This document shows positions 1-16,977 of a stretch of 20,667 nt of DNA, one piece after another. Position 1 is the first letter of the stretch; every line of letters begins with the position of its first letter. The position numbers were made by a program, and so were the translations under genes. The stretch is from a virus, in IMG/VR virus record IMGVR_UViG_3300043621_000060, positions 1 to 20,667 of that record; one strand, written 5' to 3'. The notes beneath the pieces are model-generated. The model worked only from the letters and a program-made list of their open reading frames with translations. It was not told the DNA's origin and did not search any database.

Positions 1-1173
1 GGGCGGCTGGTATCCCACCTCGATGGACAGCCCGAAGCGGTCGGCGAAGGCGGCGTTTTGTCTCACAACGCCAACAAATCCCTTGGCCGCGCCACCATCG
101 CTCAACGTCGCATTGTTCGTTGCGAAAAAGACAACGTTCCTGGCGACCGAAATCCGCTCGCCCGTATCTGGAACGAAATAGGTCATTGATTGCAGAAGGT
201 TATTGAGTGCCACGCCCACGGCCGGGCGCATTCCGCCCACCTCGTCCAGACAGATCACCATGCCCGGCTGGCGCATCGCGGCCAGCAACAGGCCGTCAGC
301 CCATGCCACGCCGCCTTTCCCGTCCAGCACTCGCTGGCCCATGAGCGTATCCACTTCAACGCCGTCGGACAGGCTGATGCAGGTATAGGGGCGCCCCGTC
401 CGCGCGGCGAATTGCTGCGCCCAGGCCGTCTTGCCGGTGCCGGCCGGCCCCCACATCAAAACGTGCTTGGCGGGCGAACCGGCCGCCCGGGCGCGGTCGG
501 AGCGTGCCATCTGCGCCAGCGCCAGCGCCGTTGCCTCGGGCGGAAAAACATAGGCTGGGTTGATGGTCGGCGCGTCCGGGTGATCCCAGACAGTGATCTG
601 GCGCCCGGCCGCAGGGTGGCCAGTCGGCAGACCGAACAAGCCGCCCCACGTCGCCGCTGCCTTCGGCTTGAGGTCATGCACGCCCGCCGGCAGCTTCTCC
701 GGCGCGTCGCGATACACGATTTTTTCCACCGTCACGGCCGGCTTTGCGGCGGCCAGGATGAGGCTTTCCAGATCGGCGCGGATCGCTCCGAACCCACCTT
801 CTACCAGATCGGATTTCAGCCCCTCGATGCGTGTCTTGATGTCGGCCGGCGCCAGCGCCACGGCCGGCACGCTGGCCGGCGCCGTGGTCGGCGCGATCGC
901 CGCAGGGTCGGCCGCCTTGGCTGCGGTGCTGGCACGGAAGGCGGCGACGATGAAGGGCGCGGGGGATGCGGCCGGCGCCGCGCCCCCAGCGGCCAAGGCG
1001 GCGCTCGCGATGTCATCCGCGTTGCCCCCCAGCGTCGCCACTAGGGCGCGAAGCTCGGCGCGCGTCATCCTGGCCACGTCGTGCGTGGCCTTGTCGTATC
1101 CGGCCGCATTGCGAACCCATGCGCGCAGCGCATCACGAATCAATTTAGGCTCCGGGCGTTTTTGTTCGGTCAC
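1..1173 (-). CDS. MoxR/CobS-like AAA+ ATPase (3' end off window)
   Basis: At least 391 residues are visible and the frame is still open at the left edge. The ATPase core is clear: Walker A GPAGTGKT at residues 242-249, Walker B MVICLDE ending at D310-E311, and a sensor-1-like stretch FFATNNA with N353/N354, followed by ADRFGLSIEVGYQPP as seen in MoxR/CbbQ/CobS-type ATPases. The first ~60 residues are charged, residues ~60-110 are Ala/Pro-rich linker, and a pre-ATPase segment leads to the P-loop. The GTG start at 1173 is chosen because GGGAG lies 7 nt upstream and because it overlaps the stop of the upstream micro-ORF (GTGA). Such ATPases usually remodel a partner, often a VWA-domain protein encoded next door; that neighbour would lie off the left edge. 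Family assignment is solid, but the role in this phage is unknown. It is transcribed away from the virion genes. Confidence 0.88.
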   Translation of the reverse strand, partial: MTEQKRPEPKLIRDALRAWVRNAAGYDKATHDVARMTRAELRALVATLGGNADDIASAALAAGGAAPAASPAPFIVAAFRASTAAKAADPAAIAPTTAPASVPAVALAPADIKTRIEGLKSDLVEGGFGAIRADLESLILAAAKPAVTVEKIVYRDAPEKLPAGVHDLKPKAAATWGGLFGLPTGHPAAGRQITVWDHPDAPTINPAYVFPPEATALALAQMARSDRARAAGSPAKHVLMWGPAGTGKTAWAQQFAARTGRPYTCISLSDGVEVDTLMGQRVLDGKGGVAWADGLLLAAMRQPGMVICLDEVGGMRPAVGVALNNLLQSMTYFVPDTGERISVARNVVFFATNNATLSDGGAAKGFVGVVRQNAAFADRFGLSIEVGYQPP

Positions 1174-1262: not shown

Positions 1263-1307
1263 GGGTTGGGTTTGTTTCGGTGTTCGTCTTGGGTAGCGAC
1301 CCATAGG

Positions 1308-1324
1308 ACGCACAATTTGTGCGT
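1308..1324. promoter_or_regulatory. 17-bp perfect palindrome, candidate operator
   Basis: Arms ACGCACAA and TTGTGCGT flank a single central T. The dyad lies between the leftward micro-ORF/ATPase pair (start 1250) and the rightward gene starting at 1361, the usual place for an operator bound by a homodimeric repressor controlling divergent transcription. It is not followed by a T-run, so a terminator is less likely. No obvious sigma-70 promoter can be fixed beside it. Confidence 0.5.
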
Positions 1325-1360
1325 TTTGTCCAGCATGTTGGCCGCCATACAGTGCAAGCC

Positions 1361-1798
1361 ATGCAAGGCGAACGGTACGAACCGAAACAATCAGTAGCTG
1401 CGCCAAAAAAGCGGGGTGGGTGGCGCGGGTCGCAAGCGTCTCTTGATGCGCTGGCGCTGCATCGGCCGCAGTGGGCGGACCATCCCAAGTGCCCCAAGTG
1501 CGGCGCCGTGGCGCTGGCCATGAGCGGCCGCGGATTGTGCCAGCGCCACGCTGGCGCACTGCGGCGCCCGCCTCCGTCGCCGGAAGTGAGGGACAAGCGA
1601 GAGGTGCGCCGGTTGCTATGGGGCGGCCTGGTGCCGGTCGAACTGCGCCAGGTGGCCACGTTCGCCAGGTGCGCCCACGGCCCGGCCAGGTTGGCTCGCC
1701 TGGCGCTGGCCATGGTCGCGGCCTGGCCGCTGCGCCAGGTTGATCCGGCGGCGTGGGCGGAGGCTGCCAGGTCGGCCAGACAGGCTCTTGATGCCTAG
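1361..1798 (+). CDS. Small zinc-finger-like phage protein
   Basis: A 145-residue basic protein. Residues 44-63 hold a C-x2-C-x12-C-x2-H pattern (C44, C47, C60, H63) inside HPKCPKCG...LCQRHAG, which resembles small phage proteins with a Cys/His-rich patch followed by RHAG or MHGG that often sit near terminase genes. The N-terminal half (KRGGWRGSQASLDAL) is positively charged and could contact nucleic acid. The C-terminal half is Ala/Arg/Leu-rich helix. The ATG at 1361 is preferred over an in-frame GTG at 1319, which falls inside the palindrome; neither has a strong ribosome binding site. The stop overlaps the next gene's ATG (ATGCCTAG). The 3' half carries five DNA-level GCCAGGT repeats. Function unassigned. 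Confidence 0.6.
   Translation: MQGERYEPKQSVAAPKKRGGWRGSQASLDALALHRPQWADHPKCPKCGAVALAMSGRGLCQRHAGALRRPPPSPEVRDKREVRRLLWGGLVPVELRQVATFARCAHGPARLARLALAMVAAWPLRQVDPAAWAEAARSARQALDA
1647..1772 (+). repeat. Five GCCAGGT direct repeats
   Basis: Exact GCCAGGT copies begin at 1647, 1664, 1685, 1734 and 1766. They fall in different reading frames of the overlapping gene, so the repetition is at DNA level. Three further GCCAGG copies follow at about 1841, 1983 and 2097. The arrangement is iteron-like, but the spacing (17, 21, 49, 32) is irregular. Confidence 0.55.
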
Positions 1799-2159: not shown

Positions 2160-2340
2160 CCTGCCTTGCCTTGTCCTGTTTTGGCTGCCTTGCTTGCTCG
2201 GCTGGCTCGCAGACAAGCAATCGAACGCGCGAATCGCGAAACCGCCCCTGGCCCCTCGCGCGCGAGCGCCTGGTGCCATTATCACCCACACGCACAAAAT
2301 TTGAACTCCCCAACTTTCGTTGCCGTTTCGTTCTGGCTTT

Positions 2341-2371
2341 AAAGCTGGCCGGGGCTTTTGTTGTTTTTGTC
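2341..2371 (+). terminator. Weak hairpin with T-rich tail
   Basis: AAAGCT (2341-2346) can pair with GGCTTT (2353-2358), including one G-U pair, around GGCCGG; TGTTGTTTTTG follows. This could terminate read-through before the tail fibre gene. The stem is short, and the T-rich tail is also part of the repeated promoter-like element, so the two readings compete. Confidence 0.25.
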
Positions 2372-2389
2372 CCACTGCCAATGTAGACA
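2357..2389 (+). promoter_or_regulatory. Repeated 33-bp promoter-like element, copy A
   Basis: The pattern is TTTGTTGT-N-TTTGTCC-N9-T-R-TAGACA, matching copy B at 10396-10428 at 25 of 33 positions with no gap. Read as a promoter, TTGTTG (2358-2363) and TGTAGA (2382-2387) are 18 bp apart, and the element ends 28 nt before the tail fibre ATG. The conserved TTTGTCC inside the spacer is not explained by a plain sigma-70 promoter and may be an activator or phage-factor site. Confidence 0.5.
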
Positions 2390-2417: not shown

Positions 2418-5189
2418 ATGCCCGCGATCCCAGCCAAGCCCGTCCGCGCGTATTCGTTCACGTCGCACTCCACAAGCCAGCCAAGCCAGCCCCAGCCGGG
2501 TGGAAGCATGGATGGCGAGTATGACCGGAGTAACAGCGCCACTGGCTCGATCATTGATGTCCTGCACGTCTCACTCAACCCTGACGGCACGCTGAAATCC
2601 CAGGCGGTTGAAGACGCCTACAACCCGGGCGACCCAACCAACGGCGGCGAGTTCGTCAACGTCTTCAACGAACCCAGCGCCCTGAACGCTCGCACCGCCA
2701 TGGCGTGGGCGGAACACCTACCTGACATCCTGCCCGCCGACGTTCTGGCCAACTCGGAAGTGACCGGCGACCATTGGTCGTCCCGTTGGTGGGCGAACAA
2801 GGCCGCCCAGATTGTCGATGACTTCCATAACAACCCGAACCTGCCCCCGACTGACTGGGATGACATCCCGAACAAGCCAACCACCTTTCCCCCCACGCTC
2901 CCGATCGCGCAGTCCGATGTCACCGGCCTCCTGACCGACCTGAACAGCAAGCTGCCCCTCGCGGGCGGAATACTGACCGGGCCTCTGACCTTGGCCGGCA
3001 ACGGCACCAACCCCCTTCACGCCGTCGCCTTCCAGCAACTCGCGCCCTTCGCCACCTCGGCCAGCCCCGTCTTCACGGGCGACCCACAGGCCCCCACGCC
3101 CCCGCCGGGCGACGCTGACACCTCCATCGCCACCACCGAGTTTGTCATGGCCGCCGTGGCCGCCAGCACCACGGGCGTCGCCACTTGGAACGCCCGCACC
3201 GGCAACGTCGTCCTGAACACCACGGATGTTGTCTCGGTGTTTCCCGGTTCCGTGGCCATCCCCTTGATGGATGGCGTGGGCGTGTCGGGTTCCGCTGTCA
3301 CATGGTCGCGTGGCGACCATGTGCATCCTACCGACACCACGCGGGCGCCAATCGTCAGCCCCGCCTTCACCGGCAACCCAACCGGCGTCACCCGGGCGCC
3401 CGGAGACAACACGATCAGCCTTGCCACCACCGCCTTTGTCACGGCCGGTTTCCTCGCCCTGGCGGGCGGAAGCCAGTCCATGGCGGGGCCTCTCAACGTC
3501 GGCGTCGCCGCCATCCCTGGCCTCACGCCCGCCACCGTCAACACGGGCGATATCATCCTGAATGGTGGGCTGAGCTTCAACGTCTATTATGGCGGCAGCA
3601 GTGTTTGGAAGCGCCGGGAAGCCGGCACGGGCGCGCTCATCCACCTCGACTACACCGCCCCCACCCCGTCGCTGAACTTCTTCACCGTCGCCACGGGCGC
3701 CAAGGATTCCGCCGCCACCCTGAACACGATGTTTCAGGTGCAGGAGACGAATACCTACGTAAACAACCGCCTGATCGTGCAGTCCGGGCGGATTGTCTCG
3801 CAATCCACGCTCGCCACCGATGTCTCGTCCTTCACCGCTTTTAACCAGGGCAACAACAAGGGTGCCGGCTTCTGGAGCAACAACGGCCAGATTGATTTCG
3901 GCTCGATGGATGGTGGCGGCGGGATTGTCACCTATTATGGCGGGTTTAATAGTGCCGGCTCCTTCATCGCCACAAACTATCTTAGCGGCAATATCGTGCT
4001 TGCCAAATCCGGCATGCAGATCGGTGAAGGCATTGGCTACGCCTGGAACCATTACGTCGAAGCTGGGTCGAACGATCACATCCAGGGGCATGCCGGCGGC
4101 TGGTATGATCGGTGGGCGAGTAACGGCGGGCTGCGGTCGTGGGTCGGCGGCAACGTCACTACAATGTCACACGATGGCTCAGGCAACACTGAGATTAAAG
4201 GTTTCGTGCGGGCTCAGAACGGCGTCTACGGTGATGCCAACCATACGGCATTGCTCTTGAGCGGCAATCGCTGGGGCATCCTGCGTCTTGTCAGCAATGG
4301 CGCGCAGTTCCAGTGCGACAACACCACCGGATACCTGCAATGGGTCCGTGGCGGCGATGGCCTGGAGATGTTTGGCATAAACACATCCGGCCAATTCTCG
4401 ACAGCCGGTTTCATCAATGCCAGGGGCGCCGACGCGAACGGCTACGCATTCACCTCAAGTGCCGGCGGGCTTTGGCTCTCTGGCAGCGCGTATTTCGGCG
4501 GCGGCATCGGAACCGGCGGCGATGTAAGTGCTGGGCAGTTGATTTACTGCAACGCCGGCGTATATGGGCAAACCGGCGTCTGGGCGAACCATGTAAATAG
4601 CGGCGGCAACTTCGGCATATACCCCAGCGGCAACTGGCGCTTCCTCCAGTTCTCGCCAGAGTGGCGTCTACAATGGAGCCACGACCAGCCCGACTTCTCG
4701 TATTGGGCCAGCAGCCGGATACTCCTGCAATGCCGCAATGGCGATGGCGTCCTGATCAACCCATCCGGCACAGTCGGCGGAAATGGCGCATACTGGAATT
4801 TCTCCGACCTCCGCAACAAGGAGAACATCGAGCCGTCTGCGGTTGGGTTGACTGAAATCCTCCAGCTCCAGCCTGTGCAATTCAAGCGCGTCGCTATGGT
4901 CGGCGATGAGGGCGGGACATCGCCTGATGGCATCGTGACCCCTCCGATGATCCGCCGGCAGGAGATCGGCTTCGTCGCCCAGGACGTTCTGAAAGTCATC
5001 CCCCAAGCCGTCGTCAACGCGGGTTTCCCGCTCCCTGACGGCTCCGGCACCCTGGAAGACACCGACCCGACCCTTGGCCTGACCTACGACACAATCACCG
5101 CCGCTCTCGTCAACGCCACCAAGGAACTGAGCGGCCAGATCAACACCCTCCACACCCGCATCAAAGCCTTGGAAACCCCCACACCATGA
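2418..5189 (+). CDS. Tail fibre/spike with C-terminal S74 self-cleaving chaperone
   Basis: A 923-residue receptor-binding protein. Residues ~11-50 (AYSFTSHSTSQPSQPQPGG then a D-E-containing helix) match a conserved N-terminal segment of phage fibres, which supports ATG 2418 over later ATG 2508, although the ribosome binding site is weak. Residues ~175-200 carry PLAGGILTGPLTLAGN, a common fibre motif. Two copies of a SPxFTGxP...PGD...ATTxFV unit lie at about 214-246 and 312-344. The middle is a Gly/Asn/Ser-rich beta-structured shaft. The C terminus is a peptidase S74 chaperone: S796 and K801 in SDLRNK have the S-x4-K spacing of the catalytic dyad, followed by EIGFVAQDV. By analogy with known members, cleavage just before S796 would release about 128 residues after trimerisation. 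The gene sits between the putative small and the large terminase rather than at the end of the virion block. Confidence 0.92.
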   Translation: MPAIPAKPVRAYSFTSHSTSQPSQPQPGGSMDGEYDRSNSATGSIIDVLHVSLNPDGTLKSQAVEDAYNPGDPTNGGEFVNVFNEPSALNARTAMAWAEHLPDILPADVLANSEVTGDHWSSRWWANKAAQIVDDFHNNPNLPPTDWDDIPNKPTTFPPTLPIAQSDVTGLLTDLNSKLPLAGGILTGPLTLAGNGTNPLHAVAFQQLAPFATSASPVFTGDPQAPTPPPGDADTSIATTEFVMAAVAASTTGVATWNARTGNVVLNTTDVVSVFPGSVAIPLMDGVGVSGSAVTWSRGDHVHPTDTTRAPIVSPAFTGNPTGVTRAPGDNTISLATTAFVTAGFLALAGGSQSMAGPLNVGVAAIPGLTPATVNTGDIILNGGLSFNVYYGGSSVWKRREAGTGALIHLDYTAPTPSLNFFTVATGAKDSAATLNTMFQVQETNTYVNNRLIVQSGRIVSQSTLATDVSSFTAFNQGNNKGAGFWSNNGQIDFGSMDGGGGIVTYYGGFNSAGSFIATNYLSGNIVLAKSGMQIGEGIGYAWNHYVEAGSNDHIQGHAGGWYDRWASNGGLRSWVGGNVTTMSHDGSGNTEIKGFVRAQNGVYGDANHTALLLSGNRWGILRLVSNGAQFQCDNTTGYLQWVRGGDGLEMFGINTSGQFSTAGFINARGADANGYAFTSSAGGLWLSGSAYFGGGIGTGGDVSAGQLIYCNAGVYGQTGVWANHVNSGGNFGIYPSGNWRFLQFSPEWRLQWSHDQPDFSYWASSRILLQCRNGDGVLINPSGTVGGNGAYWNFSDLRNKENIEPSAVGLTEILQLQPVQFKRVAMVGDEGGTSPDGIVTPPMIRRQEIGFVAQDVLKVIPQAVVNAGFPLPDGSGTLEDTDPTLGLTYDTITAALVNATKELSGQINTLHTRIKALETPTP

Positions 5190-8063: not shown

Positions 8064-10385
8064 ATGTCTGGCTTTAACGGGTTCATCCCCTCGCCCACGG
8101 TGCCGGGCGCTCTGGAAGCAGACCCTGGCTTCGCCCAGGCTGCTCAGGCCGGCATCCAGGCAGACCCGAACGCGCCCCAGGCAGACAAGATACCGCGCGA
8201 GCTACCGGACCCGTCGCTGGCCCGGCGGCGCCTTGTCACTCGCTGGCAGGACCGTGTGACCCGGGGCCGCAAGCATTTCGCCCGCGATTTCGAGCGGATG
8301 AAGGCGAACACCGAGTTTGTCCTGGGCGCGCAGTGGGAGGAGGGCAAGCCCCTCACCGGCAATGAGGCCAAAGACAACCGCTATGTGGCCAACGTCGCCC
8401 TGCGCCACGTCCAGCAGACGGTCGCGACCTTGTATCCCACCAATCCGACCGTCAAATTCGTCGCCCGCGAGAAGATGATCGCCACCGTCTGGGATGGCGA
8501 CATGACCACCCTCGCGGCGGCCCAGCAGAAGATGCAGATGGACGCCCAGGCGCAGGCGATCGGCCTCCCTCCCATGCCGCCCGATCCCCAGACGATGGCC
8601 GTCATGCGCGATTTCGTGGCCGTCCAGACCTACGGCAAAATGATCCGGCGCGTTGGCAAGACCATGGAAATCCTGTGGGACTACAACGTTGACGAACAGG
8701 TGCATCCGTTCAAGAGCATGATGAAGCTGACCCTTCGCCGGGCGGTCATCACGGGTGTTGGCTACATCAAGCTGGGCTTCCAGCGCGCGATGAAATTGTC
8801 CCCCGAAATCGAGAACCGCATCGCGGACATGAGCGAGCGCCTCGCCACCATCGAGCGCATCTCGGCCGACATCGCGGACGACAAGACCGATACCGACAGC
8901 GCCGAGGCGGAACAGCTTCGGCTGTCGATCCAGGCCATGGCCGCAGACAATCAGGTGGTTGTCCGTGAGGGCCTGGCGTTCGACTACCCCGATTCCTGGT
9001 CGCTCATCCCAGACCCCCGCTGCCGGTCCCTGAAGGGCTTTCTCGGTGCCGATTGGGTCGCCCAGGAATACCTCTTGTCCCCGGACGAGGTGGAGGAAAT
9101 CTACAAGGTCGATGTCCGCAAGGGCTATCTCGCCTACGCCCCGGACGGCCTCTCCCCCGGGGGCAATGCCATCACCACCGGCCATACCAAGGCGGGTGGC
9201 ACGGACAACGGCACCGACAGCGACCGCGACGGCGGGCGGGATATGTGCTGCGTCTGGGAGATTTGGTCGCGCAAGGATGGCCTCGTCTATACCGTCTGCG
9301 ACGGCTATCCCGACTTCCTCTTGGAGCCGCACCCGCCCGAAACATTTTGCGACGCCTGGTGGCCCTGGCATGTCATTCTGTTCAACGAAGCATATCACGC
9401 TAAACGCTTGTTTCCGCTATCTAATATAGATCTGATCCGCGACATGCAGATGGAAATCAATCGTGCCCGTCAGGGGCTGCGCGAGCAGCGCCAGGCCAAC
9501 CGCCCGGCCATGGTCACGGCGGCCGGGTCTATGGAGCAGGGAGACAAGGACAAGATCGCCACGCGGCCCGCGAACGCCTTGATCGAGTTGAACGCCTTGC
9601 AGCCCGGGCAAAAAGTGGACGACCTCCTGCAAGCTCTCGAAATGCCGGCCATCAAGCCCGAACTCTATGAGACGGCCGGGGCCATGGAAGACATGCTGCG
9701 GGTGCTTGGCAACCAGGCGGCCGACACCGGCTCCACGTCGGGCGCCACCGCCACCGAAGCCTCTCTGGCCGAGGCAAGCCAGCACAGCGCGCAGTCCAGT
9801 GTGATGGACGATCTGGATGATGTCCTCTCCCAACTCGCCCGCAACGGCGGCCAGATCATGCTCCTGAATATCTCGGCCGAGGTGGTGAACGATGTCGTCG
9901 GGCCGGGCGCCGTGTGGCCCACGCTGGACAAGACAACGGTCGCGAAGAACGTCTACCTCGAAGTCGAGGCAGGTAGCTCCGGGCGGCCCAACAAGCAGGC
10001 CGACATCCAGAACCTCGTCCAGCTTATCCCCCTGCTACAGCGCATCCCGGGCGTCTCGCCGGAGTGGATGTCCAGGGAAATCCTGCGCCGGATGGACGAC
10101 CGGATGGACCTCACGGACGCCTTCGCGCAGGGCATCCCAAGCATGGAGCAAATGAACCGGGGCGGTATGCCTGGCATGGGCGCGGGCGCCGGGCCGCCCG
10201 ACGCCGGGGGTGCCAGCGACCCGAGCGCCCAAGGCGCCCAAGGCGCGTCCAACAGCCAGGCCGGGCCTCCTACGAACGGCATGATGCGCCCGCGCGATCT
10301 CCCGACCAGCGCCGAGACAATGCCACAGGCGGGCCAGCCCATGGGCGTCCAGCCCACCCCCGGCACAGGAATGGCAACGCCTTAG
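8064..10385 (+). CDS. Portal protein
   Basis: A 773-residue protein directly after the large terminase. Recognisable portal features are the early QWEEGKPLTGNEAKDNRYVA segment (about 94-113), RHVQQTVATLYPTNPTVKF, a long helical region (about 240-300) and the stretch containing DMQMEINRARQGLREQRQAN (about 457-476), as in portals of podoviruses with P22-like or related head-to-tail machinery. The last ~90 residues are Gly/Met/Pro/Gln-rich low complexity. The ATG at 8064 has GGAGG 9 nt upstream. It forms the dodecameric ring through which DNA is packaged and ejected. Portal identity rests on length, gene order and these motifs; the exact subfamily is not fixed. Confidence 0.88.
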   Translation: MSGFNGFIPSPTVPGALEADPGFAQAAQAGIQADPNAPQADKIPRELPDPSLARRRLVTRWQDRVTRGRKHFARDFERMKANTEFVLGAQWEEGKPLTGNEAKDNRYVANVALRHVQQTVATLYPTNPTVKFVAREKMIATVWDGDMTTLAAAQQKMQMDAQAQAIGLPPMPPDPQTMAVMRDFVAVQTYGKMIRRVGKTMEILWDYNVDEQVHPFKSMMKLTLRRAVITGVGYIKLGFQRAMKLSPEIENRIADMSERLATIERISADIADDKTDTDSAEAEQLRLSIQAMAADNQVVVREGLAFDYPDSWSLIPDPRCRSLKGFLGADWVAQEYLLSPDEVEEIYKVDVRKGYLAYAPDGLSPGGNAITTGHTKAGGTDNGTDSDRDGGRDMCCVWEIWSRKDGLVYTVCDGYPDFLLEPHPPETFCDAWWPWHVILFNEAYHAKRLFPLSNIDLIRDMQMEINRARQGLREQRQANRPAMVTAAGSMEQGDKDKIATRPANALIELNALQPGQKVDDLLQALEMPAIKPELYETAGAMEDMLRVLGNQAADTGSTSGATATEASLAEASQHSAQSSVMDDLDDVLSQLARNGGQIMLLNISAEVVNDVVGPGAVWPTLDKTTVAKNVYLEVEAGSSGRPNKQADIQNLVQLIPLLQRIPGVSPEWMSREILRRMDDRMDLTDAFAQGIPSMEQMNRGGMPGMGAGAGPPDAGGASDPSAQGAQGASNSQAGPPTNGMMRPRDLPTSAETMPQAGQPMGVQPTPGTGMATP

Positions 10386-10395
10386 CCGCGTAAAG

Positions 10396-10428
10396 TTTGT
10401 TGTGTTTGTCCATGGGCGGATATAGACA
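10396..10428 (+). promoter_or_regulatory. Repeated 33-bp promoter-like element, copy B
   Basis: Same pattern as copy A at 2357-2389 (TTTGTTGT-N-TTTGTCC-N9-T-R-TAGACA) with identical spacing. Read as a promoter, TTGTTG (10397-10402) and TATAGA (10421-10426) are 18 bp apart. It ends 24 nt before the scaffold TTG start, in the only sizeable gap (10386-10452) between portal and capsid genes, where a separate late promoter for scaffold and capsid would make sense. Confidence 0.55.
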
Positions 10429-10452: not shown

Positions 10453-11547
10453 TTGTCCGACGCGCTAAATTCGTCTTCGTCAGGCGATACAGGTAACGGC
10501 CATCCCGAGGCCGCAGACGCTTCCGGCGCGCCAGCGCCGGAAACGGCGGCGGCAGCCCCGGAGGCCAGCCAGGACCAAGGCGCGAGTGACGCGGCTTCGC
10601 CAGCCGCAGACCCGGTATCCGACCGCGCCGCCCTGCTTGCAGTGGTAAAGGACGCGGTAGCCAAACCCGAAGACAAGGCCGCGCAGGCCGAGACAACGGA
10701 CAAGGCGTCAGATGCCGCAAGTAGTCCGACCACGACGGCTCAAACGCCCGCTGCGCCCGATCCGAATGCTGACCCGACCGAGCAAGAGCTTCAGGGCTAC
10801 AAACCCTCGACGCGCAAGCTGATCGCCAAGCTGACGACCGCCCGCAACGACGCGCGCGAGCAATTCGACCGTGTTCAACCCGAACTGGCCGCTCATCGAG
10901 AGCTAGTTGGCTATCTACAGCGCCACCAGTTGGCCGCCGAAGATGTCAACCTGCTGTTGGGCGTCGGTGCCGCGTTGCGCCGAGGCGATTTCAAAGCGTT
11001 TCTGGATGGCATCGAGCCTTATCGGCAAGTCGCCCGCCAGTCACTTGGCCTGGACGTATCGCCCGACTTGCAAGCGCAAGTGGACGAAGGAACGATCAGC
11101 CCAGAGTTCGCAGCGGAGCTTACCAAAACTCGCCTTGAGGCGGCCCGAAGCCGCGTCGAGGCCAGCACGCAGCAAGACCGACACGCCGCTAGGGATCAGG
11201 ACGCTCACCAAAACGCCCTCCGTCTGGCCATCGACGGGTGGGAATCACAGGTGCGGTCGCGTGACCCGGACTACGCCCGCAAGGAGCTATTTGTGCGGCG
11301 TGCGTCGCAGGCCCTGTTGTCCGAGTTTGGCGCTCCCCGGAGCGCCCAAGAAGCCGTGCAACTGGCGCAGCGAGCTTACGACGAAGTGAGCAAAGGGTTC
11401 GGGGCGATTCGGCCCCCGCGCCAGCCCACCCGTCCCACGCCGAACGGTTTCTCCACCCCCTCACTCGGCGCTGCCGCCGAACCGCGGACCCTATTGGAAG
11501 CTGCAAAGCTTGCATTGTCCCGGACGCGGGCGGGTAGCGAAGCGTAA
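10453..11547 (+). CDS. Scaffold-like capsid assembly protein
   Basis: A 364-residue protein between portal and major capsid genes. Residues 1-110 are highly Ala/Pro/Asp/Glu-rich and probably disordered; about 110-330 are charged helix with coiled-coil character (KLTTARNDAREQFDRVQPEL, then TRLEAARSRVEASTQQ); the tail is basic and Pro-rich (IRPPRQPTRPTP). This architecture and position are those of internal scaffolds that line the procapsid and leave before maturation. No protease motif is seen. The TTG start is supported by AGGAG. Sequence matches for scaffolds are weak by nature, so the call rests on context. Confidence 0.75.
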   Translation: MSDALNSSSSGDTGNGHPEAADASGAPAPETAAAAPEASQDQGASDAASPAADPVSDRAALLAVVKDAVAKPEDKAAQAETTDKASDAASSPTTTAQTPAAPDPNADPTEQELQGYKPSTRKLIAKLTTARNDAREQFDRVQPELAAHRELVGYLQRHQLAAEDVNLLLGVGAALRRGDFKAFLDGIEPYRQVARQSLGLDVSPDLQAQVDEGTISPEFAAELTKTRLEAARSRVEASTQQDRHAARDQDAHQNALRLAIDGWESQVRSRDPDYARKELFVRRASQALLSEFGAPRSAQEAVQLAQRAYDEVSKGFGAIRPPRQPTRPTPNGFSTPSLGAAAEPRTLLEAAKLALSRTRAGSEA

Positions 11548-11562
11548 TCGGACCCAAACAAC

Positions 11563-12675
11563 ATGGCTTTCACAGCCGGAGAACTGACCAACATCAGTAA
11601 CGCTGCCCTTGACTTCTATATGAACAAGGGAAAGACCTTCAAGCAGTCCATCCAGGCCAAGCCAATGCTTGCCCTCATGGAAGCGGGGAAAAAGACCTTT
11701 CCGGGCGGCAAGGGCAGTATTTCCCTTGGCGTGAAGGGGGTCTACGGCGCGGCGGGCGTGAACGATAGCGTTGTTGGTTACACCCACAACGACACCGTGA
11801 ACTTCTATACGCCCGCCAATATCCAGCGGGCCAACTTCCCGTGGCGGGAACACCACATCGGTCTGACGCTCACTCATACTGAGTTGAAGATCGACGGTAT
11901 CTCAGTCACGGACGAGACGGGTGACGGTTCCAGCACCAGCCAGCACTCTGACCGGGACATGACTGTTCTTGTCGGGTTGCTGGAAGACAAGCTGGATGAC
12001 TTTGGCGAGCAGTATTCGCGCACCATGAATACCCTCCTGTGGGGTGATGGGGTCTCGGATGCCAAAGCCCTGGCCGGCATTCGCAGCATCATCACCGCGA
12101 CCCCCGGCACGGGCGTCGTGGGCGGCCTCTCCCGCGTCACCTACCCGTGGTGGCGTAACCGCTCCCGCACGGCGGCCATGGCCGCCGCGATTGTGGGCAC
12201 CCCTGGCCTCGCGGCCTGGGGCGGCGATGCCGTGACCAGCGCCCCAACGGATGGCGGCGTGCTGCTTCAGGCGCTCACCAAGGAATACCTCCAGCTTTGC
12301 CGCTACGGCGCCCGCCCGAACAAGGCGTTCGCTGGCAGCGACTTCCTGGCGGCGTTGCAGAAGGAGCGCCGGGCGAACGGCACCTACAGCCAGACTGGCT
12401 TCGACAAGAGCCAGTCCATCAACGTGGGGGATAGCATCCTCCCCGGTGGCGCGGTGCCGGAGTACGATCCTACCCTTGATGATCTTGGCCTGTCCAAGCG
12501 CATGTATTGGTGGGACAGCCGGCATATCTACCTGATGGCAATGGAAGGCGAGTGGAACCACCAGTTCACGCCGTCCAGGCCAACTAACCAGTTCGCCATG
12601 TACAAATCACTTACCCATACTGGCCAGTTGGTTACTCAGCAGATGAACGGCGCGCTCGTCATCGACATCACTTAA
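11563..12675 (+). CDS. Major capsid protein
   Basis: A 370-residue protein following the scaffold. It begins MAFTAGELTNISNAALDFYM, includes the KTFPGGKGSISLGVKGVY segment (about 45-62), a NFPWREHHIGLTLTHTELKIDG stretch (about 90-110), the long acidic helix LLEDKLDDFGEQYSRTMNTLLWGDG (about 145-168) and ends with QFTPSRPTNQF and a beta-rich tail. This fits HK97-fold phage coat proteins of the group in which helix and peripheral segments follow this order; the fold is inferred from family resemblance and gene order. Only a weak GGA about 10 nt before the ATG is visible, which is surprising for such an abundant product; coupling with the scaffold gene (gap 15 nt) may compensate. Confidence 0.88.
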   Translation: MAFTAGELTNISNAALDFYMNKGKTFKQSIQAKPMLALMEAGKKTFPGGKGSISLGVKGVYGAAGVNDSVVGYTHNDTVNFYTPANIQRANFPWREHHIGLTLTHTELKIDGISVTDETGDGSSTSQHSDRDMTVLVGLLEDKLDDFGEQYSRTMNTLLWGDGVSDAKALAGIRSIITATPGTGVVGGLSRVTYPWWRNRSRTAAMAAAIVGTPGLAAWGGDAVTSAPTDGGVLLQALTKEYLQLCRYGARPNKAFAGSDFLAALQKERRANGTYSQTGFDKSQSINVGDSILPGGAVPEYDPTLDDLGLSKRMYWWDSRHIYLMAMEGEWNHQFTPSRPTNQFAMYKSLTHTGQLVTQQMNGALVIDIT

Positions 12676-15717: not shown

Positions 15718-16522
15718 GCGTCAGATCGCCGCTCAGAAAGAGTTGCAGACCCAGAGCCTGCAACAGCAGCAGAAGATTGCCGACGCCCAGGCCGCGCAGA
15801 ACCAGCAGCAGTTCGACTACCAGAAGGCCCAGGACGACCGCCGCCTTCAGGACACGGTTGACCAGTCCAACCGGCAGGCAGCCTGGGACCAGTCGCGCAA
15901 CGCCGCCGCAGGCAAGGCCACCAATGCGGTGGAGGCGGCGTTCTCCCGGTTCAGCCCGGAATACTTCAAGCAATATCAAGACGACTACATGGCCAACTCG
16001 GGCGGCGAGATTAACCGCCAGTATGGCGACGCCACCAAGGAACTGACCTACGCCCTGGCCCGGCGAGGCACCCTGGCCAGTTCGACCGGGGCCGACCAGC
16101 TAGGTCTCCTGACCGAGACAAAGGGCCGCAAGGAAGCCGACGAGGCCAATACCGCCGTGACCCGGGCGAATGCCCTCAAGACCCAGGCCCTCTCGGCCAA
16201 GCAGGGCCTGCTGCAACAGGCGTTGTCTTCGGACACGCTTGGCTCTCCCATTGCGCCCGGATCGTCCGACAGCGTGAACGCCGCCATCGACGCCGCCAAC
16301 CGCGCGGTGTCCCAGATCGGCGTCACTTCGGGCGACTATGCCGCGTCCATCAAGCCGCCGGAGCAGTCGCTTGGCACGCTGTCGGGCATCTTCGCGGGCG
16401 CCTTGGGCGGCGCCAGCAACGTCATGTCTGGCCGGGAAGACGCCCGGGTGGCGGCGGCCTACGGCGGCCCCAGCCCGGGCGCGTCGTCCAACTCATCCGG
16501 GAGTGTGAAGCGATGGAGCTAG
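15662..16522 (+). CDS. MCFFGG-type internal virion/connector-associated protein
   Basis: A 286-residue protein with the distinctive MCFFGGPKSN start; many phage proteins in this genomic position begin MCFxGG. Residues ~13-85 are a Gln/Ala/Glu-rich coiled coil (SERQIAAQKELQTQSLQQQQ), the middle contains FSRFSPEYFKQYQDDYMANS, and the C terminus is Gly/Ser-rich. This suggests an elongated helical protein ejected with DNA or lining the core, possibly a T7 gp14-like role. Overlap of 56 nt with the upstream gene and 10 nt with the downstream one. Function is inferred from place and composition. Confidence 0.65.
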   Translation: MCFFGGPKSNAQAQAEESERQIAAQKELQTQSLQQQQKIADAQAAQNQQQFDYQKAQDDRRLQDTVDQSNRQAAWDQSRNAAAGKATNAVEAAFSRFSPEYFKQYQDDYMANSGGEINRQYGDATKELTYALARRGTLASSTGADQLGLLTETKGRKEADEANTAVTRANALKTQALSAKQGLLQQALSSDTLGSPIAPGSSDSVNAAIDAANRAVSQIGVTSGDYAASIKPPEQSLGTLSGIFAGALGGASNVMSGREDARVAAAYGGPSPGASSNSSGSVKRWS

Positions 16523-16977
16523 TCTTCACACGGGAGTTGGCCACACAGAAGCTGCGCGACGAGGCGCAGTCGCTCTTGGTTGCTCATTGGCAGGAGATCG
16601 CCCTGGACCAAGACACGGTGCCCCTCGATGACCGCTGGGACATCTACGAGCTTCTGGAAAACCAAGGCGCCCTGAACATCATGACCGCCCGCACCAAGGA
16701 CGCCGGGCGGCTGGTTGGCTATGTCGTGCATATCATCACGGTCAATCCCCACTACCGCTCCCTCCTCGTCGCGGACAACGATATCTTCTGGCTGGACCCG
16801 GCCTACCGCAAGGGGATGGCGGGCGTTCGGCTCCTGCGGGCGGCCGAAGCCGAGTGCAAGGCGCGCGGGTGCAACAAGATCGTCCTCAAGGAGAAGGTGC
16901 ATCGGTCGCTAGGCCGCTTGATGGAGTTCATGGGCTACACGCTCATTGAGCGCGTCCACGCCAAGGCGCTCCGCTAA
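16513..16977 (+). CDS. GNAT-family N-acetyltransferase-like protein
   Basis: A 154-residue protein. GRLVGYVVHIITVNPHYRSL (strands), DIFWLDPAYRKGMAGVRLLR (about 92-111) and RGCNKIVLKEKVHRSLGRLM followed by EFMGYTLIERVHAK fit the GNAT fold. RKGMAG corresponds to the R/Q-x2-G-x-G/A loop that binds the acetyl-CoA pyrophosphate, so unlike the preceding GNAT-like virion protein this one may retain cofactor binding. The substrate is unknown; some podoviruses carry such proteins among virion genes. GGGAG lies 13 nt upstream and GAAG 3 nt upstream of the ATG. Confidence 0.78.
   Translation: MELVFTRELATQKLRDEAQSLLVAHWQEIALDQDTVPLDDRWDIYELLENQGALNIMTARTKDAGRLVGYVVHIITVNPHYRSLLVADNDIFWLDPAYRKGMAGVRLLRAAEAECKARGCNKIVLKEKVHRSLGRLMEFMGYTLIERVHAKALR

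Follow-up and report, generated by a model that had tools for sequence, protein, structure and literature searches.

The tail fibre and scaffold genes of the phage studied here are each preceded by a copy of one 33-bp element, which raises the question of what reads this element, and whether it places the two genes under a common control. The DNA analysed (the window), a viral contig of 20,667 bp and 64.7% G+C, is a fragment that lacks the early half of the genome and any early or regulatory genes. The initial annotation interpreted the element as a phage-specific late promoter or as the site of a phage activator. Both copies were found where it had placed them, on the + strand, without a gap and with 25 of 33 bases identical, and their closeness to gene starts was confirmed, copy A lying 28 nt before the fibre ATG and copy B 24 nt before the scaffold TTG (Table 1).

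Table 1. Coordinates of genes, repeat copies and candidate promoter boxes in the window.
Feature	Position	Strand	Remarks
CobS-like AAA ATPase	1-1173	-	PF07728; PHROG 249, porphyrin biosynthesis
Alternative promoter reading of third copy, TGGACA-N18-TCCTAT	1303-1332	-	best match of relatives' matrix
Third exact copy of 16-bp core	1316-1331	+	divergent gap upstream of 1361 ORF
1361 ORF promoter, -35 candidate TTGTCC	1326-1331	+	TTGTCCAGCRTGT kept in G019
1361 ORF promoter, -10 candidate TACAGT	1348-1353	+	
Small ORF (1361 ORF)	1361-1798	+	3' of third core copy; homologous ORF at matching G019 position
Second small ORF	end at 2123	+	
Terminator-like hairpin	2330-2355	+	directly 5' of copy A; T tail overlaps element start
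33-bp element, copy A	2357-2389	+	upstream of tail fibre gene (ATG 2418)
Fibre promoter, -35 candidate TTGTTG	2358-2363	+	alternative TTGTTT 2361-2366; TTTGTTG kept in G019
Fibre promoter, -10 candidate TGTAGA	2382-2387	+	alternative TAGACA 2384-2389
Tail fibre gene	2418-5189	+	Peptidase_S74; ATG start 2418
Terminase large subunit	start 6499		
Portal gene	8064-10385	+	
33-bp element, copy B	10396-10428	+	upstream of scaffold gene (TTG 10453)
Scaffold promoter, -35 candidate TTGTTG	10397-10402	+	alternative TTGTGT 10400-10405, aligns with G019 TTGCTT
Scaffold promoter, -10 candidate TATAGA	10421-10426	+	alternative TAGACA 10423-10428
Scaffold gene	10453-11547	+	assigned by position between portal and major capsid; TTG start
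Major capsid gene	11563-12675	+	further structural genes after capsid

By capsid, the window is related to two named phages, Rhizobium phage RHph_N65 and Microcystis phage Mae-Yong1326-1. Since each encodes an integrase together with a repressor, the group is temperate; the window phage is a temperate, P22-like phage, probably of Alphaproteobacteria. A related prophage was found in one Rhizobiales genome, and a scan of portal alignments detected related prophages in five of 397 genomes of that host's order. Outside these 397 genomes, the sole portal match was G019 (L264), a 47-kb relative with 63-67% portal identity and the gene order of the window, which is the closest relative; a scan with the tail fibre N-terminus found no relative. 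Several short genes lie between the tail fibre and terminase genes of the window. Tandem hairpins at 2110-2160, after the ORF ending at 2123 (GTCTAAGC...GCTTAGAC and CACGCCC...GGGCGTG), probably mark the end of a first small operon. The CobS-like ATPase gene adjoins the late genes, a similar gene occupies the matching place in G019, and CobS and CobT are both present in Mae-Yong1326-1. A GNAT acetyltransferase gene (16513-16977) sits amid the structural genes of the window, with genes in like positions in G019, RHph_N65 and Mae-Yong1326-1. The last of these (L073, OP028995) has 71.8% G+C and head genes that group with those of phages of Alphaproteobacteria, whereas Microcystis, its stated host, has ~43% G+C; it was described with a long flexible tail, yet its late module looks podovirus-like. 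The assignment of its host or particle deserves a check.

Copies A and B share the pattern TTTGTTGTnTTTGTCC-N9-TRTAGACA. Among the intergenic gaps of the window, their pair score of 37.1 was reached by none of 1000 dinucleotide-shuffled gap sets, and an identity of 25/33 by one of 1000. No other pair of sites in these gaps was comparable, and the best of the remaining window sites retained only 16 of the 25 bases common to A and B. The full pattern, sought with spacers of 6-12 in all viral contigs, had no match elsewhere, and no match of at least 18/25 was found in the capsid relatives. The 15-base left half gave at least 120 scattered single matches, about the chance level, none of them with TRTAGACA at the right spacing.

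A scan of the window for the pattern, a check that the initial annotation had named, revealed, once the left half was reduced to its core, a third copy of part of the element that the first reading had overlooked. The core, TTTGT-N4-TTTGTCC, is a 16-bp direct repeat with a 9-bp period and forms the left half of the 33-bp element. The window contains three exact copies of it and no more, all on the + strand and in the sense orientation, in the gaps upstream of the 1361 ORF, the tail fibre gene and the scaffold gene, which are the main window gaps upstream of + genes. Exact matches were expected at 3.5e-5, 5.6e-5 and 8.3e-6 in the three gaps (3.5e-5 in that of the third copy) and at 1e-3 in the whole window, several patterns having been picked after looking at the sequences. 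One site thus recurs at several promoter gaps of one genome. The third copy is without TRTAGACA at N9, so that the right half is common to two of the three copies only, and the unit common to the three gaps is the 16-bp repeat rather than the full element. The conserved spacing likewise held in part: copies A and B agree in their distance to the -10 box, whereas the candidate -10 of the third copy is 5 bp farther, and the core is therefore not at one set distance from this box.

Across the relatives, pairs of TTTGT were most frequent at a spacing of 9 (10 pairs, of which the window has three, versus 0-5 at other spacings). The exact core was observed in no relative other than G019 (0.09 expected) and was absent from the stretches read in the five prophage genomes. 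No exact CtrA box (TTAA-N7-TTAA) or LexA box (GTTC-N7-GTTC, GAAC-N7-GTTC) was found anywhere in the window. Inverted TGTC-N13/14-GACA pairs, spotted by eye in the window, L026 and L044, were set aside, being inconsistent in a clade of soil phages described below.

The -35/-10 reading offered in the initial annotation was compatible with the pattern of the family. The scaffold promoter can be read as TTGTTG-N18-TATAGA or TTGTGT-N17-TAGACA, the fibre promoter as TTGTTG-N18-TGTAGA or TTGTTT-N17-TAGACA, and the 1361 ORF promoter as TTGTCC-N16-TACAGT. With a sigma70 matrix (15-19 bp spacing) scored against shuffles, the window copies alone scored weakly, with P values of 0.14 (scaffold), 0.31 (fibre) and 0.015 (1361 ORF). 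Alternatively, the third copy may belong to a promoter of the CobS-like gene on the minus strand, with the boxes listed in Table 1. About 70 capsid relatives were collected and their scaffold-upstream DNA was read, gene starts being assigned with a simple caller written for this analysis. The scaffold-upstream regions of 35 relatives scored above shuffles in aggregate (median P 0.15, combined P ~1e-6, the latter a guide only because the relatives are not independent), versus median P values of 0.64 and 0.53 (combined ~0.8) for control junctions upstream of the capsid and at the portal frame start. Among 38 non-redundant scaffold-upstream regions (below 70% identity), TAGACA was the most enriched 6-mer, present in 11 versus 0.72 expected, followed by TCTTGC and AGACAC. 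Clear sigma70-type examples were found at the junction in prophages, namely TTGACA-N18-TATTGT (L283), TTGTCG-N17-TATTTT (L288) and TTGACA-N18-AATTAT, and TATAGACA is present as well between the portal and scaffold genes of the G112 prophage. The sigma70 scores, the 6-mer enrichment and the prophage examples therefore define the portal-scaffold junction as a conserved promoter position, which the window element occupies.

Other features of these junctions were also recorded. Hairpins with an AGACAC loop (L026/L027) proved no commoner than hairpins with permuted loops and were rejected. Repeats of the scaffold-upstream region within a genome were strong only in the L062/L063 clade and in L048, where they have other sequences. 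In the former, GTCTGATC[TC]GTC, a clade-specific repeated element, has 11 copies in L127-L129 (L063) and 13 in L130-L132 (L062), each genome being ~49 kb long, on both strands and often at gene ends or between genes; some copies directly precede hairpins and one lies in the portal-scaffold gap. In the L048 genome (L139/L140), the palindrome CGTTA-N4-TAACG, which looks like an operator, has three copies, among them those immediately before the scaffold and capsid genes.

The orthologous scaffold promoter reads TTGCTT-N17-TAACAGGCAAG...GACAATAGGAG in G019 versus TTGTGT-N17-TAGACAGCAAG...GACAATAGGAG in the window, so that the boxes are conserved (TTGCTT-N17-TAACAG versus TTGTGT-N17-TAGACA). The -35 box, the N17 spacing and the -10 box are retained and TTTGTCC is identical, while the other spacer bases have diverged; this match was made by eye, the program alignment shifting the T-rich block. 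The retention of TTTGTCC in the spacer suits a regulator site. At the fibre promoter of G019, TTTGTTG and a TGnAnACA box are retained and TTTGTCC is lost. A ~60-bp tandem duplication (GTGTAGCGGTGGAAATTCGCGTCTTCCCAACCTTCATTCCGATTTAACATCGTGGCC) was noted just upstream of this promoter (L275, ~42.8-42.95 kb). Upstream of the 1361 ORF, TTGTCCAGCRTGT is retained in G019 ~35 nt before the start codon, again by eye, the program having aligned that stretch otherwise. The exact core is present in G019 twice, as overlapping copies with the 9-bp period (TTTGTGTGCTTTGTCCTGTTTGTCC), in the gap 804-1081, where 2e-5 were expected and which is not orthologous to the core-bearing gaps of the window. The scan of related phages thus recovered the exact core in G019, but the full 33-bp element in no other viral contig. 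Common descent of one locus only, which the initial annotation had named as grounds for abandoning its reading, does not describe this distribution: the three window copies are non-orthologous, and G019 has the core elsewhere too.

A more distant connection was suggested by the clade of soil phages (L004, L005, L007-L010, L012-L015, L018, L033 and L045), whose scaffold promoter carries CTRGACA...ACAAA...CATAAG (TRGACA-N16 to N18-CATAAR). A matrix built from 13 of their scaffold-upstream sites, with no window sequence included, gave the three window cores, read on the minus strand, ranks 1, 2 and 3 among ~41,000 positions (P 1e-4, 5.5e-4 and 1.8e-3 in same-letter shuffles). In the converse scan, the best match fell on the same element in most of the clade, where the site occurs about once per genome and is inverted relative to the window. 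A link between the window core and this site, inverted between the clades, is suggestive only, since the training sites were aligned by hand and the motif is A/C-rich.

Taken as promoter regions, the element sites agree with the initial annotation, and this part of the reading is well supported. The proposed arrangement would comprise three host sigma70-type promoter regions in the late (structural) arm, each with TTTGT-N4-TTTGTCC over the -35 box and the 5' part of the spacer. Given the boxes and their spacing, the host sigma70 RNA polymerase would most likely read these promoters, its -35/-10 boxes at scaffold, fibre and 1361 ORF being poor. The repeat lies at three non-orthologous promoters and is partly kept at the G019 scaffold promoter, which indicates that something besides the boxes is selected there. 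From these sequence patterns we infer that a protein binds the repeat and that a regulator exists; it would be phage-encoded or, less likely, a host protein, and would help or gate the polymerase. Activation is more likely than repression because the boxes are weak, and in the simplest model the regulator would contact the polymerase at the weak -35 box. Since the same repeat adjoins ordinary bacterial promoter boxes at three gene starts, a shared regulator probably turns on the structural genes jointly, so that the fibre, the scaffold-capsid and the first late genes would respond together. With modest confidence, we favour three sigma70-type promoters that share a regulator-bound repeat and co-control the late genes.

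The alternative that survives best, possible but rather unlikely in our judgement, is that these are three plain sigma70 promoters with no shared regulator, the repeat being a copied promoter region or convergent T-rich DNA bound by RNA polymerase only. The core does overlap the -35 region in all copies, the relatives have sigma70-type promoters at the scaffold junction without a core, and the G019 fibre promoter keeps its boxes without TTTGTCC. Against it speak the recurrence of the exact 16-mer in a non-orthologous gap of G019, the retention of TTTGTCC within the diverged spacer of its scaffold promoter, and the peak of TTTGT pairs at spacing 9.

It is improbable that the repeat serves the phage's own immunity regulators of the CI/Cro type as an operator that silences late promoters in the prophage. 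Such a role was suggested by TTTTGTC/GACAAAA words in the divergent repressor/Cro intergenic regions of several relatives, but in six relatives other gaps matched the scaffold-upstream site at least as well as the immunity region did, and the immunity regions of L012, L013 and L033 carry other dyads, AACAAC-N5/6-GTTGTT. Dyads of this kind are common to divergent repressor/Cro-like gaps (L106 7853-8142, L109 6981-7270, L122 12455-12653) and are candidate immunity operators.

T-rich terminator tails or another RNA signal are a very improbable source of the element: the terminator-like hairpin runs into copy A, but no such hairpin precedes copy B, and the conserved parts reach beyond the T tract. 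The phage-specific promoter of the initial annotation, in the sense of a promoter for a phage-encoded single-subunit RNA polymerase, found next to no support; T7-type promoters likewise form an element that recurs along the late strand, but a search of 20 relatives gave no RNA_pol (PF00940) match (the T7 control was detected at 1e-109), the relatives have sigma70-type boxes at the position, and the window element itself resembles -35/-10 boxes. Chance resemblance of T/G-rich intergenic DNA is hardly credible, for although random 110-bp coding segments of the window scored 27.6 +/- 2.9 with one of 25 reaching 36.3, a smaller margin than that against shuffles, it is contradicted by the third exact copy, the G019 copies and the shuffle tests.

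Three sigma70-type promoters with a shared regulator site would be a new example among already known kinds of late-promoter control. In phages lambda and P22, one late promoter and Q antitermination suffice. The window shares the P22 order of head genes (terminase, portal, scaffold, capsid) but has several promoters within its late arm, and a search of 15 relatives for one Q family (antitermQ, PF06530) gave no match. Late promoters of the P2 type share one activator site, for Ogr/Delta, near -55; several late promoters with one common site are likewise found in the window, and an Ogr_Delta gene was sought in 15 relatives and not found (the control was positive). The CcGTA promoter of Caulobacter crescentus is sigma70-dependent with a degenerate -35, and its activators are GafY and GafZ, together with IHF; GafY, which assists the degenerate -35, and IHF have their sites far upstream, and a putative GafZ element, the inverted repeat GCGCCCG-CTGGCGC, lies inside the -35/-10 spacer (PMC11150451). 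The window would share with it a phage-like late cluster of Alphaproteobacteria and a sigma70 promoter with a poor -35 and a regulator element in the spacer, whereas the window repeat is direct, T/G-rich and placed over the -35. Because sequences and geometry differ, CcGTA is an analogy and does not imply membership.

The finding is sound but fairly ordinary. A broader reading, which we hold tentatively and consider unlikely, is that a single regulator family would govern late promoters across this temperate, podovirus-like group by way of a site, GACA...ACAAA / TTTGT...TGTCC, whose orientation over the -35 box and spacer is free to vary. One clade would have a lone, inverted copy of it per genome, and in the window phage it would have reached no fewer than three promoters. 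If true, this would be a late-control system that operates without phage RNA polymerase, Q or Ogr. The timing of late genes is known for few temperate phages of Alphaproteobacteria, a class whose gene transfer agents, themselves phage-like relics, face the same problem of control. A relative that bears the core and a 16-bp site at three late promoters together offer a handle on the late regulator of a mostly metagenomic phage group.
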